From an uncultured Cycloclasticus sp. (GTDB lineage: Bacteria; Pseudomonadota; Gammaproteobacteria; Methylococcales; Cycloclasticaceae): DNA of 64,000 bases. Each line of letters starts with the position of its first letter. Positions within the stretch are counted from its first letter, which is position 1. The notes below the pieces were generated by a model that was not told the DNA's origin, ran no database searches, and saw only the letters and a program-made list of their open reading frames with translations. This document shows, piece after piece, positions 26,070-33,606 of this stretch. Location of the stretch: positions 124,001-188,000 of the forward strand of contig CAJXTU010000001.1 of NCBI GenBank assembly GCA_913060865.1, written 5' to 3'. The translations under genes were made by a program, and so were the position numbers.

Positions 26070-26485
26070 TGAATGATGCCCTCGCTTTTTAGTAAGGTTC
26101 GGAGTTTTTCAACGCGCCGACGATTGACGCCAAAGTCATAATAGCCTGTGCGCGAGGCAGAGCGGACATGAATGATTTGCTGTTCAGAGTTAATGATTAA
26201 ATCTAAGTCATCAACAAACCCAAAGACACGACTGGTTATTTCCGCATGAATACGATGTTCATCATGGATAACGCTGATATTGTTGTCGAGATGTTTAAGT
26301 GCTTCGACAAGCTGTTCCCTATTAAAGCGAGAGACATCTTTTAACTGAAACGGTGCAATAGCATGTTTATCGCTGGTCACGCTAGAGACGCAGTTGGGCT
26401 TATCTGGGCAAGGTTGTAGTTCGTTTTTATTTGCGGAAACTTGTGAGCACATAGTGAGGATAAAGAATATGAATAGTTTTCTCAT
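26066..26485 (-). CDS. DUF1499 domain secreted protein
   Basis: A 139-residue protein with an N-terminal signal peptide (residues 1-18, SQVSA-NK). The DUF1499 opening [14 protein letters not shown] is followed by [12 protein letters not shown] and the closing [20 protein letters not shown], all family hallmarks. Function unknown. It overlaps tatC by four bases upstream and ygiQ downstream, so it is probably made from the his-tat transcript. Confidence 0.88.
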
Positions 26486-27234
26486 TGAGTAGTTTTAGTT
26501 TCAGTTTGTGGAACAAATTTTTTGGACATAAATAAGCCTATTTCAAAAAGTAGCCACATCGGTAAGGCCAATAAGGTTTGTGAAATAATATCAGGTGGTG
26601 TTAATAACATACCGACAACAAAGGCGCCGACAATAATATAAGGCCGTTTTTCAGCTAAGCTTTGCGGTGTTGATACGCCGGTTTTAACCAATAAAAACGT
26701 TGCAATAGGAACTTGGAATGCCATGCCGAAAGCGAAAAACAGCGTTAAAATAAAGTCCAAATATTTACTAATATCAGTCATGACGGCAACGCCTTCAGGT
26801 GCCGTTGCGGTTAGAAATTGGAAAATAAGGGGCATCACGACAAAATAGGCGAATAGCATGCCGCTATAAAATAACAAGGTGGCTGCGCTGATTAAGGGCA
26901 ATGCAATGCGCTGTTCATGTTTGTATAGACCGGGCGAAATGAATAACCAGATTTGGTAGAAAATCCATGGAATGCTAATAAATACAGATAGCATTAGCGT
27001 TAGTTTCAGAGGTGTCAGAAAGGGCGAAATTACTTCAATGGCCACCATACTGGTGCCTTCTGGCATGTGAATTAGCAGCGGTTGGGCGACGAGCGAATAA
27101 ATATCGTTCGCAAAAGGCGCTAGGGGTAAGAAAATGGCTAACATGCCAATGAGCGCGTGGATAAGACGCGTGCGTAACTCAACTAAGTGAGAAACGAAGC
27201 TGGTTTCTTGGTCGTTAGGGTCAATGTCTGACAT
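26482..27234 (-). CDS. tatC: Sec-independent protein translocase TatC
   Basis: A 250-residue inner-membrane protein with six helices that recognises twin-arginine signal peptides. The N-terminal FVSHLVELRTRLIHA and the periplasmic FISPGLYKHEQRIALP are the family signatures. It is 45 bases downstream of tatA; the tatB gene usually found between them is missing here. Confidence 0.96.
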   Translation of the reverse strand: MSDIDPNDQETSFVSHLVELRTRLIHALIGMLAIFLPLAPFANDIYSLVAQPLLIHMPEGTSMVAIEVISPFLTPLKLTLMLSVFISIPWIFYQIWLFISPGLYKHEQRIALPLISAATLLFYSGMLFAYFVVMPLIFQFLTATAPEGVAVMTDISKYLDFILTLFFAFGMAFQVPIATFLLVKTGVSTPQSLAEKRPYIIVGAFVVGMLLTPPDIISQTLLALPMWLLFEIGLFMSKKFVPQTETKTTQ

Positions 27235-27279
27235 AGGGTAAAACGTTATCGGTTAAAGGCAACCGATATAAAGGGTTGG

Positions 27280-27492
27280 CTATTTATTAGTGTCGTCTTT
27301 ATCGACGTCATCGTTAGCTACAGATTTATGCTCATCAGTGCCTTTTTTTTCTTCGCCTTCTTTCATAGCGCCTTTAAAGCCCTTTATCGCGCCACCTAAA
27401 TCACCGCCAAGGTTACGTAAGCGTTTTGTGCCGAACAATAGTAAGACAATAACGAGAACAATAATTAACTGCCAAATGCCAATGCCGCCCAT
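27280..27492 (-). CDS. tatA: twin-arginine translocase subunit TatA
   Basis: A 70-residue protein with a short membrane helix ([17 protein letters not shown], residues 5-21), the [10 protein letters not shown] hinge, an amphipathic helix with [12 protein letters not shown], and an acidic tail. The FGTKRL form and the short length point to TatA rather than TatB. It follows hisE, a common gammaproteobacterial arrangement. Confidence 0.93.
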
Positions 27493-31015: not shown

Positions 31016-31107
31016 TTGTAGGGTGTGTGCTTAGTTGCGAGTAAGTTGCATTTTCCCAATAACGCGTGGGGATAGCAAGTATGAAGTTCTTGTTTGTAAT
31101 TTATTCG

Positions 31108-31362
31108 TTAGCCACCAACAATGGGTGGCCAAATTGCTAATATGTCACCATCGTTTAGGCGCTTAGTAGGGCGGTCTTCTTTGTTGATATAAACTCCATT
31201 AAGGATAACTAGGTGGAGATTTTTGTCTGCTAAGTTAACACGTTCGACGAGGCTGTTAATCGTGTCATTTTCAAGAAGTGTGATTTGCTTTATTTCCCCA
31301 GCAATGTTTTCGGCTGAAGACTTGGCTAAGGAAGCAAAGAGTTTTAATGTAATGTGCGGCAT
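31108..31362 (-). CDS. MoaD/ThiS family sulfur carrier protein
   Basis: An 84-residue ubiquitin-fold protein: HITLKLFASLAKSS at the start, NGVYINKEDRPTKRLNDGD in the middle and a C-terminal Gly-Gly (PPIVGG), the residue that becomes a thiocarboxylate. Next to an aldehyde ferredoxin oxidoreductase gene it most likely donates sulfur for the tungsten/molybdopterin cofactor. A terminator hairpin stands directly before its ATG and no ribosome site is visible, which is odd. Confidence 0.8.
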   Translation of the reverse strand: MPHITLKLFASLAKSSAENIAGEIKQITLLENDTINSLVERVNLADKNLHLVILNGVYINKEDRPTKRLNDGDILAIWPPIVGG

Positions 31363-31365
31363 AAT

Positions 31366-31399
31366 AAAAAAACGAGGCGGTATATATACCGCCTCGTTT
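31366..31399 (-). terminator. terminator hairpin between the AOR gene and moaD-like gene
   Basis: A perfect inverted repeat fills 31370-31399 (half-site AACGAGGCGGTATA at 31371-31384 with its complement at 31385-31398). On the minus strand it is followed by a run of seven T (31372-31366), the form of a rho-independent terminator. It starts about ten bases after the AOR stop codon and its T-run ends three bases before the moaD-like ATG. Confidence 0.8.
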
Positions 31400-31409
31400 A
31401 TAGTTTTAG

Positions 31410-33275
31410 TTATAAAGGTAGGCTGAGGCGTTTTCTTGTTGCATCTGTAAGGGTGCCATCAGTATTCCAACCACGTATTTCATAGTAATTAGGCAACATC
31501 TTGTCGAGCTCACAAACATGACCTTTTGCAGGGCCTTCTTTGATAGGCTCCTCAAGTAACCGTGGTGGTAAGGTGTCATCGGCAGCTGTGAATCCAGCGC
31601 TATTGTTGAACTCACGTTCCATATTCCAAACGCGCTCACCCAATAGCATTAATTTTTCTGCCGTCCAGTCGCCTTCACAGGCAGCATCTAATTGGTCAGC
31701 GACTTCTTCAACGCCTTGCGCAAAAGAAGAGAAGGTGCAAATACCTGCTGAATCAAAAATACTGGTCGTATCTTGAAAGGCCATCAGTAATTCTGCTTTG
31801 CCTTCAGTGGCCAGCGGGTCGGTCTTAAATGGAATACCGGCTGTTTCTGAACCATTGGTGTAGCCTCGAACATGGCAAGCGCCTCGGTTCGATGTGGCGT
31901 AACCAAGCCCCATACCCTGTACGGCACGAGCATCATAAGCAGGGAACTCTTGGCCTTTTACGACGATAGCTAAGTCTGGACGGCCATATTTAGTGCAGAA
32001 ACGTAAGGAGCTTTGAGCAAGCTCTTTACCAAACCCTTCGTGTTTACCAATAAGTTCCACGCACTTAACCATTGCTTCGGCATTACCAAAGTTTAGTTCA
32101 ATACCGCCGGTGTCTTCTTTGGTTAGTATGCCTAATTCGTAAAGCTCCATTGCAGCGGCAATGGTTGCACCGGCAGAAATAGGGTCAAAGGCTTGCTCGT
32201 TGCTAACAAAGTTTGCATAAGTAACCGCATCCAAGTCATCCACACCCGTGTCAACCCCAAACGCCCAAGCTGCTTCGTACTCGTTGCCACCTGAATTACT
32301 TTTGAAGTGTTTGTGTAGGTCGTCTCTATTTTTAATGGTGAAATGTTCTGGGTCGATTGTTGAAATTCGGCCGCAAGCAATGGTGCATGCAAAGCAAGCT
32401 CCAGGGCGCGTTAGGTTGGCTTTGCCGTCGCTTTCTCTAGGCACCATCATGGCTTCACTAGAGAGTTTTGCAGCGCCTTCAAACGTACTATCGCGCCAGT
32501 TTCTAGTGGGTAGTGCGCCCACTTCATTCATATGGTTCATCATTACATTGGTGCCTAAGGCACCTAGCCCTTGGGCCATTTCATTGTTGGCAATGATTTC
32601 TTTTGTTTTTTGAGTTGCGGCAAAAAAACGTTTAGGGTCTTTGATATTGCCAACACCTTTGCTACCACGAAGTGTCACGGCTTTTACATTCTTAGACCCC
32701 ATAACGGTGCCAACGCCAGATCGGCCTGCTGCGCGATGAAGGTCGTTAACAATAGCTGAATATAGGTTTCCATTTTCGCCTGGAACGCCGATTGCTGCAA
32801 TTCTGAGTTGCGGGTCTTGGTGTTTATTATGTAGCCATTCATCGGCTTCCCAAACAGACTTACCCCAAATTTCATCAGCAGGTAAAATCTCGCATTTTTC
32901 ATTAGCGATGTTGATATAGACTGGAGAGCTAGCCTTTCCTTCAAGAATAATCATGTCCCAGCCAGCACATTTCATCTCATTGCCGAAAAAGCCACCAGAA
33001 TTTGAGCAAGCAAGTGCATTTGTTAGAGGGCTTTTAGTCACACAAGAGTAACGGCCACCTGTTGAAGCCATTGTTCCTGTTAGTGGGCCTGTCACCATAT
33101 AGAGCTTGTTTTCTGGGGCGAGGGGCTCGACGGTTGGGTCCACTTCTTCTGTGAGGTACTTTGTTGCTAGACCCCTTTGACCTAAATAGAGTTCAGCCCA
33201 TTCCATATTGAGTGGTTCTTCGGCAGATGTTCGGTCAGTTAAATTTATGCGTAATACTTTTTTAGTCCAGCTCAT
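31410..33275 (-). CDS. aldehyde ferredoxin oxidoreductase, tungsten-pterin type
   Basis: A 621-residue AOR-family enzyme; these oxidise aldehydes to acids with tungsten bis-pterin and one [4Fe-4S] cluster, passing electrons to ferredoxin. Cluster ligands appear as C294, C297, C301 (CFACTIAC) and C513 (AGICTF), the same spacing type as Pyrococcus AOR. The N-terminal domain has RYSCVTKSPLT, SGGFFG and AAGRSGVGTVMGSKNVKAV. Single subunit; no ferredoxin or tungstate transporter gene lies nearby. A MoaD-like gene follows and a small gene diverges upstream. Unusual among mostly aerobic gammaproteobacteria, so transfer is possible. Confidence 0.93.
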   Translation of the reverse strand: MSWTKKVLRINLTDRTSAEEPLNMEWAELYLGQRGLATKYLTEEVDPTVEPLAPENKLYMVTGPLTGTMASTGGRYSCVTKSPLTNALACSNSGGFFGNEMKCAGWDMIILEGKASSPVYINIANEKCEILPADEIWGKSVWEADEWLHNKHQDPQLRIAAIGVPGENGNLYSAIVNDLHRAAGRSGVGTVMGSKNVKAVTLRGSKGVGNIKDPKRFFAATQKTKEIIANNEMAQGLGALGTNVMMNHMNEVGALPTRNWRDSTFEGAAKLSSEAMMVPRESDGKANLTRPGACFACTIACGRISTIDPEHFTIKNRDDLHKHFKSNSGGNEYEAAWAFGVDTGVDDLDAVTYANFVSNEQAFDPISAGATIAAAMELYELGILTKEDTGGIELNFGNAEAMVKCVELIGKHEGFGKELAQSSLRFCTKYGRPDLAIVVKGQEFPAYDARAVQGMGLGYATSNRGACHVRGYTNGSETAGIPFKTDPLATEGKAELLMAFQDTTSIFDSAGICTFSSFAQGVEEVADQLDAACEGDWTAEKLMLLGERVWNMEREFNNSAGFTAADDTLPPRLLEEPIKEGPAKGHVCELDKMLPNYYEIRGWNTDGTLTDATRKRLSLPL

Positions 33276-33371: not shown

Positions 33372-33389
33372 TGTAAGCATATACTTACA
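33372..33389. promoter_or_regulatory. palindrome in the gap between AOR and the divergent small gene
   Basis: TGTAAG (33372-33377) and CTTACA (33384-33389) form a perfect inverted repeat around CATATA. It overlaps a -10-like TATACT (33380-33385) pointing at the small gene and lies about 100 bases upstream of the AOR start. It has the size of a dimeric-regulator site, but no regulator gene is adjacent. Confidence 0.4.
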
Positions 33390-33405
33390 TTGATTGAGGT
33401 AGTGG

Positions 33406-33576
33406 ATGATGACTTATAGCGGAGAGTGTCTCTATACTTCAACTGTCGCTAAAGAAATTTATGGGAAGGATCCCAATAAACACGGATTGTTTGCTACGGA
33501 CGCGCCAAGGATAGCGCTATCAGCATGGATTGCTGGAAGGACGATTTTTTGCCAACCAAGCATGGCGACCATTTAA
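33406..33576 (+). CDS. 56-residue small protein, divergent from AOR
   Basis: ATG at 33406 is placed five bases after GAGGT (33396-33400), opening a 56-codon frame that starts MMTYSGECLYTSTVAKEIYG, continues KDPNKHGLFATDAPRIALSA and ends CQPSMATI. There is no signal peptide or clear membrane helix; two cysteines (positions 8 and 49). A strong terminator begins one base after the stop. The combination of ribosome site, open frame and terminator argues for a real gene. I do not recognise the family. Confidence 0.6.
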   Translation: MMTYSGECLYTSTVAKEIYGKDPNKHGLFATDAPRIALSAWIAGRTIFCQPSMATI

Positions 33577-33606
33577 CCGACGGATTTTATTCCGTCGGTT
33601 TTTTTT
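33577..33606 (+). terminator. rho-independent terminator of the 56-residue gene
   Basis: CCGACGGA (33577-33584) pairs with TCCGTCGG (33591-33598) and eight T follow (33599-33606). It starts directly after the TAA of the small gene. typA ends at 33626 on the other strand and may use the hairpin too, but lacks a T-run in that direction. Confidence 0.88.

Follow-up and report, generated by a model that had tools for sequence, protein, structure and literature searches.

A conserved hairpin between an aldehyde:ferredoxin oxidoreductase gene and a MoaD-like gene in Cycloclasticus: a probable leaky terminator and mRNA protector

In Cycloclasticus, a marine bacterium that degrades oil, the short gap between the gene of a tungsten enzyme of the aldehyde:ferredoxin oxidoreductase (AOR) family and the MoaD-like sulfur-carrier gene behind it holds an RNA hairpin. 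Its base pairing is maintained between species while its letters change. Sequence comparison and analogy with described operons suggest that this hairpin is probably an internal terminator with some leakage and, in addition, a protector of the AOR mRNA, an arrangement that would provide much AOR and little MoaD. The analysis started from one stretch of 64,000 nucleotides of an uncultured Cycloclasticus sp. (contig CAJXTU010000001.1 of assembly GCA_913060865.1), here called the window, whose relevant features are collected in Table 1.

A stable hairpin fills the AOR-moaD junction

On the minus strand, the window carries the genes typA, AOR, MoaD-like (moaD below), hisB, hisH, hisA and hisF in this order, where the typA and his names, like the tat names used further below, are presumed from the translations. 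The stop codon of AOR (TAA, 31412-31410) is separated from the ATG of moaD (31362-31360) by a 47-nt gap, which contains a palindrome and a run of seven T. The palindrome AAACGAGGCGGTATATATACCGCCTCGTTT (31399-31370, minus strand) has 30 bases and forms 13 pairs, seven of them G-C, around a 4-nt loop; the seven T (31372-31366) are followed by ATT and then by the start codon. An earlier note on this DNA had described a perfect 30-base inverted repeat and seven T, with three bases between the last T and the ATG, and this description proved accurate. RNA folding, which it had proposed as a check, returned a stable hairpin for each of two cuts (-22.5 and -21.3 kcal/mol; z -5.85 and -5.06), with 0/200 shuffles as stable in either case; shuffles made by script were first-order Markov resamples and not exact dinucleotide shuffles. 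The window copy combines the two marks of an intrinsic terminator, a stable G+C-rich hairpin (about -21 kcal/mol) and a T-run directly 3' of the stem (T at 8/9 positions), the second of which is not present in every relative.

A survey covered 464 kb of the same genome (409 genes, called as in the other surveys by a simple codon-score script, with 309 codirectional neighbours). Of its 32 gaps of 30-70 nt between codirectional genes, only the one between AOR and moaD contained a stem-loop with an energy of -10 kcal/mol or lower. The 136 codirectional gaps of 25-300 nt contained 21 hairpins that reached at least -12 kcal/mol, and the AOR-moaD hairpin lies nearest to a start codon, at a distance of 7 nt, followed by others at 17, 22 and 27 nt.

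Table 1. Features of the AOR-moaD region, in window coordinates
Feature	Position	Strand	Evidence
AOR-family aldehyde:ferredoxin oxidoreductase gene, 621 aa	31410..33275	minus	AFOR_N and AFOR_C matches; strong SD, aSD pairing -7.0 kcal/mol
30-base palindrome / RNA hairpin, 13 pairs	31370..31399	minus	10 nt 3' of AOR stop; position kept in 12/12 readable orthologous junctions
Seven-T run (3 T inside stem, 4 beyond)	31366..31372	minus	sequence
ThiS/MoaD-like sulfur-carrier gene, 84 aa, C-terminal GG, without SD	31108..31362	minus	PF02597, 30.4 bits (cut-off 22.5)
Promoter-like element between moaD and hisB (TTGCTA, 17 nt, GAAAAT)	31048..31079	minus	conservation in 10 species; putative function

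The stem is conserved as a structure across the genus

AOR was present in 18/18 searched genomes of the genus and falls into two groups, AOR1 (13 loci, 86-100% identical to the AOR of the window) and AOR2 (11 loci at 69-71% identity and one fragment). L010, whose contig ends at AOR, was left out of the junction counts. In the 12 readable AOR1 loci, moaD is always found 3' of AOR and typA always upstream, and hisB follows moaD in 10 of them, the other two contigs ending earlier. Comparison of the junction among relatives, likewise proposed in the earlier note, detected the hairpin in all 12 (the counts are not independent, as the species share ancestry), and the letters of this hairpin differ strongly between species. 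Its distance from the AOR stop is 6-17 nt, and 0-18 nt separate it from the moaD ATG. When the 12 junctions were aligned, standard pairs made up 93.4% of pair cells, compared with 73.1% after shuffling and 31-54% when partners were slid by 1-3 columns; both sides were altered at 8/9 stem pairs, and letters were conserved only around the ATG. Judged by these alignments, the junction hairpin is real and selected, with selection acting on the structure and leaving the letters free.

The T-run is more variable. Among the nine nucleotides after the stem, eight are T in L003 and L004, seven in L014 and L015, six in L009, L012 and L013, four in L005, L006 and L011, three in L007 and two in L008. The stem is therefore kept more firmly in the genus than the T-run, and because only 2-4 T of 9 follow the stem in L005-L008 and L011, intrinsic termination appears doubtful in these five of the 12 species, which counts against a terminator. 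Over all 12 junctions, the T fraction after the hairpin is 0.60, compared with 0.26 in the rest of the gap.

A bulge-free finder located a terminator-like hairpin in 10/12 AOR2 loci (the fragment included) and missed L016 and L020, the former of which folds into a hairpin with a bulge (z -2.2). The AOR2 surroundings (L016-L026) differ in gene content: behind the terminator-like hairpin, several carry a gene that we take to be of FAD type from its MxHVIIGAGPAG-like N-terminus, and a MoaD-like gene follows directly or further on.

Hairpins follow AOR genes beyond Cycloclasticus

AOR-family matches were detected in 51/369 gammaproteobacterial genomes searched. A first set of 80 loci from genome contigs contained 37 AORs with a codirectional gene at 40-150 nt and 43 loci without such a pair. 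A stem-loop at or below -10 kcal/mol that also exceeded all 30 shuffles was present after AOR in 30/37 of these gaps but only in 3/108 gaps between other codirectional pairs of the same loci. Within Cycloclasticus the counts were 12/12 and 0/30, and outside the genus 18/25 and 3/78. The second, class-wide set comprised 53 fetched loci with AOR called in 47, 29 of which had no pair at 40-150 nt; here, a hairpin followed AOR in 12/18 gaps, compared with 4/55 for other pairs. The two sets have no identical gap in common, although L048 and L162 represent one and the same piece of DNA. A stricter z test on the fold of the whole gap gave 14/37 versus 1/106 in the first set and 6/18 versus 3/55 in the second, a weakened yet still present enrichment. 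T was also enriched after the AOR hairpins in comparison with the rest of the gap (0.56 versus 0.29 for 29 hairpins, 0.56 versus 0.20 for 12 hairpins), which favours a terminator-like role on average.

The identity of the downstream gene does not define these hairpins. The next gene in the second set opens with a dinucleotide-binding motif (MxHVIIGAGPAG and similar) in 33/47 cases, and the AOR hairpin is also present where the following gene is not moaD. Four AOR-moaD junctions from Rhodospirillaceae or Alphaproteobacteria contain a hairpin, three by the stem-loop finder (L064, L069 and L107, with 0/40, 1/40 and 0/40 shuffles as good) and one by folding (L088, z -3.25). The next gene lies closer than 40 nt to AOR in 20/47 loci of the second set, and a significant hairpin was found in 2/20 of these. 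On the basis of these comparisons, the hairpin is common but not universal, and appears tied to the 3' end of AOR rather than to moaD.

A different layout was observed for the distant AORs of L207, L208, L212 and L214 (50-55% identity), which are followed at -4 to 36 nt by small MoaD-like ORFs, so labelled by reading the sequence with no family search behind the label, and whose gaps hold no hairpin; in L214, a hairpin lies inside the next ORF. By its sequence, this tightly coupled pair of AOR and putative MoaD-like gene is an alternative to the hairpin layout.

The MoaD-like gene has a true start codon but no SD

The small protein encoded downstream of AOR matches the ThiS family above the Pfam cut-off and ends in PPIVGG, as is characteristic of sulfur carriers. 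It reaches none of the NCBIfam subfamily cut-offs for SAMP1, moaD_arch and thiS and is for this reason termed MoaD-like only. Three ThiS-family places exist in the genome of the window. As one of the others adjoins ORFs that we take to be moaE- and moaC-like, the copy linked to AOR looks like a dedicated extra.

The absence of a ribosome site at moaD, pointed out in the earlier note, was confirmed, as bases -20 to -4 of the window copy show no pairing to the 16S tail (+0.7 kcal/mol). Scores above -1 kcal/mol are found for 23% of the 409 genes and for 30% of 2000 random positions, but none of the 12 species has an SD at moaD, and pairing is never better than -0.9 kcal/mol. The AOR starts, which were read in 21/24 loci (L004, L010 and L011 missing), score from -2.9 to -9.3 kcal/mol, 20 of the 21 at -4.7 or better. 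The note had also considered another start codon for moaD. However, all 12 moaD starts encode the N-terminal pattern M-(P/S)-x-(I/V)-T-(V/L)-K-L-F-A, and the dN/dS values obtained for five of six pairs are low: about 0.16 (to the nearest relative L004), 0.08 and 0.05 for three close pairs, and about 0.04 and 0.06 for two pairs with saturated dS. These values indicate that moaD is under purifying selection as a protein and, together with the shared N-terminal motif, that the annotated ATG is the true start.

Codon adaptation among the 409 genes places moaD at the 3rd percentile, a rough value for a short gene, and AOR at the 41st, with a stretch around one ribosomal protein L2 match, whose genes were not individually named, serving as the reference. 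A high value had been expected for AOR; the average one does not suggest very high AOR expression and counts against the preferred reading.

A conserved promoter-like element precedes hisB but not moaD

The spacer between moaD and hisB contains CTTGCTATC and GTTATTGGGAAAATGC, which show few changes, and 27 columns of the aligned spacer are invariant among 10 species. This element fits a promoter with 17-nt spacing, with 8/12 consensus matches, which is under the threshold of our promoter scan. The scan listed no minus-strand site near the hairpin; it is a weak test that misses the conserved element before hisB too. A stronger argument is provided by the AOR-moaD junction alignment, in which no conserved promoter was found, whereas the element before hisB is visible in 10 species. 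No terminator-like site on the minus strand was listed by the scan between moaD and hisB in the window, and in 10 species the synonymous sites towards the 3' end of AOR, where the final bin comprised 9 codons, showed no unusual conservation. In view of the conserved element, hisB is probably transcribed from a start of its own, and transcription of moaD probably depends on read-through from AOR; the element itself may serve as the his promoter or as a site for a regulator.

The idea of a separate promoter for moaD, raised in the earlier note, therefore did not gain support from the scan or from the junction alignment, and an own moaD promoter was dropped as a candidate. A leaderless moaD start from a promoter in the T-run was rejected as well, as the TATTAT in question overlaps the ATG, transcription would start within the gene, and the motif is not conserved. 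The observations that bear on a single AOR-moaD transcription unit, the putative operon assumed below, are the conserved synteny and the lack of a conserved promoter before moaD.

Interpretation of the junction hairpin

The most probable role of the hairpin is that of an element forming the 3' end of the AOR transcript within an AOR-moaD transcription unit. Most RNA polymerases that pass AOR would halt at the hairpin and its T-run, and the resulting AOR mRNA would end in a stem-loop resisting 3' exonucleases. The smaller share of polymerases would read through to yield a bicistronic AOR-moaD RNA, on which moaD, being without an SD, would be translated weakly, so that the catalytic subunit would be far in excess of its dedicated sulfur carrier. 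A precedent comes from ABC-importer operons, where stem-loops right behind the first gene, whose U content ranges from high to almost zero, act as partial terminators, set stoichiometry and also affect the stability of the upstream RNA, as described in excerpts of PMC9045158. The earlier suggestion that read-through sets a low ratio of MoaD to AOR is retained as the best reading because of the terminator-like hairpin, the poor translation signals and the failure to see an own promoter; the part of it that linked read-through to cofactor status is not. Further points against the preferred reading are the 18/20 closely spaced AORs without a significant hairpin, the loci L207, L208, L212 and L214 with none in the gap, the weaker enrichment under the stricter test, and the repression by ribosomes of E. 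coli terminators close to a stop codon, which is taken up below.

The main rival, which we consider unlikely, is a pure mRNA-decay element of the malE-malF type. Transcription would proceed through moaD, an RNase would cut in or before moaD, and the hairpin would shield the AOR part only. This would account for the retention of the hairpin in the five species with a poor T-run, and according to the portion of PMC5927463 drawn on here, about 12% of the polycistronic mRNAs of E. coli are reshaped by differential decay, the stable portion carrying at its 3' end a hairpin that has no U-tract. Against this rival, T is enriched after AOR hairpins overall, and the window copy has the full seven-T run that is the mark of a terminator.

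A decidedly less likely possibility is that the hairpin acts as a translation-gated valve, with an RNase then freeing a moaD mRNA that has almost no leader. Ribosomes of E. coli repress a terminator nearly completely when it lies within several bp of a stop codon, and efficiency reaches a plateau beyond about 30 bp, one 18-bp construct being already at about 0.8 (passages of PMC4824070). By analogy, given the 10 nt between stop and hairpin in the window, read-through could depend on AOR translation. A ribosome finishing AOR would hold the hairpin, which starts 6-17 nt after the stop, open, and polymerase would enter moaD only under efficient AOR translation. Cleavage by an RNase in the A/T-rich linker just below the hairpin would then yield the nearly leaderless mRNA, which would explain why an SD is kept in 0/12 species. 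If true, the supply of sulfur carrier would track enzyme synthesis without any sensor.

Complete termination, with AOR as a single-gene unit and moaD either silent or transcribed from an unseen promoter in the AOR end or the hairpin, is very unlikely. The window hairpin does look strong (13 pairs, 8 T of 9). Against this stand the purifying selection on moaD, the missing promoter-like site near the hairpin (in the weak scan) and in the junction alignment, where one is visible before hisB, and the ordinary synonymous sites near the AOR end; moreover, a promoter within AOR would face the same hairpin.

A cofactor-sensing attenuator, in which tungsten or molybdenum cofactor status would shift an antiterminator/terminator pair, is highly improbable and was rejected as a candidate, although the terminator-like hairpin does lie between an enzyme and its cofactor gene. 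Within the tested range (150 nt of the AOR end and the gap), alternative pairing of the 5' arm nominally exceeded the shuffled mean in 9/12 species, the largest excess being about 1.3 sd, so that no alternative helix was clearly better than shuffled arms in the 12 species. The alternative gains 1.6-9.9 kcal/mol, less than the 12.0-22.9 kcal/mol of the hairpin in every species. Neither Moco/Tuco nor any other Rfam family except a tRNA was found in the window at gathering scores, looser thresholds being applied upstream of AOR only. The letters and loop of the hairpin are not conserved, and similar elements are also seen behind AOR genes that have a presumably FAD-type gene in the place of moaD. 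The cofactor response proposed earlier is for these reasons not upheld.

Finally, a DNA element, be it a palindromic protein-binding site or a mobile repeat, can be practically discounted despite the perfect palindrome, as the letters vary between species with pairing kept, and a genome search at E 0.001 found no second copy; no plasmid match was found.

Neighbouring features

A candidate Gac/Rsm-type small RNA is located on the plus strand between typA and AOR (33372-33606). Such small RNAs are recognised by a GacA box and GGA loops. The candidate is preceded by an inverted repeat, TGTAAG-N6-CTTACA (33372-33389, plus strand), 44-45 nt before a -10-like TATACT (33433-33438, plus strand) that is kept in 10/12 aligned loci. 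The RNA itself would span about 160 nt (33446-33606), with 6-9 GGA per species and its own plus-strand terminator, and both sides are changed at 16/46 predicted pairs (12 of 13 AOR1 loci; L004 not included). A csrA gene is present in the genome. The GacA-box-like repeat alone is weak evidence, because, with one mismatch allowed, the genome contains the box 8 times and the reversed pattern 5 times. Only two copies of the box match exactly, and there is no such small RNA at the other one (L218). Rfam returned only matches under gathering score at this candidate, and Cycloclasticus is not mentioned among the literature matches listed for Gac/Rsm-type small RNAs. An ORF of 56 aa that lies upstream of AOR and has a good SD was rejected as a gene, since its protein is not conserved and has no Pfam match, which led to the small-RNA reading instead. 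On the other side, tatA-like and tatC-like genes (26482-27492, minus strand) follow the his genes, 45 nt apart, a gap too small for a tatB-like gene.

Comparison with known systems

The element is probably of an ordinary kind, in a setting for which no description is known among the literature searched. A hairpin after AOR was named in no title or abstract opening among the listed matches of the AOR and tungsten literature, and the parts of the AOR literature covered by the search contain no account of the balance of AOR against helper proteins. For Cycloclasticus, excerpts of PMC12510462 list AOR as a candidate for the oxidation of aldehydes when pentane is used. A structure kept after AOR with its letters free suggests selection on expression ratio or mRNA stability, and the hairpin may offer a simple handle on the amount of MoaD-like carrier that a tungsten enzyme requires. 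It may also lead operon predictors to separate AOR from its helper gene.

The Moco/Tuco RNA motif (portions of PMC2408646) shares the association with molybdenum or tungsten cofactor genes, but no match to it reaches the gathering score here, and the present site is located after an enzyme gene and not in a leader. Hairpins of the malE-malF type, to judge from sections of PMC5927463, have in common a conserved, stable hairpin after the upstream gene; they carry no U-tract behind it, in contrast to the T enrichment of the AOR hairpins and the full T-run of the window. The terminators of Clostridia ABC-importer clusters, as far as the excerpted text of PMC9045158 describes them, also consist of a stem-loop directly after the first and most needed gene, with variable U content and the next cluster gene behind it. 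The present case differs in that it concerns an AOR locus of Proteobacteria, its effect is predicted, and the hairpin abuts a start codon without an SD. Joining of AOR and MoaD-like genes in one operon is seen in aorABCDE of Aromatoleum aromaticum (sections of PMC6365974), which encodes three structural subunits and two MoaD-like proteins, whereas the Cycloclasticus unit would consist of one AOR and one MoaD-like gene.
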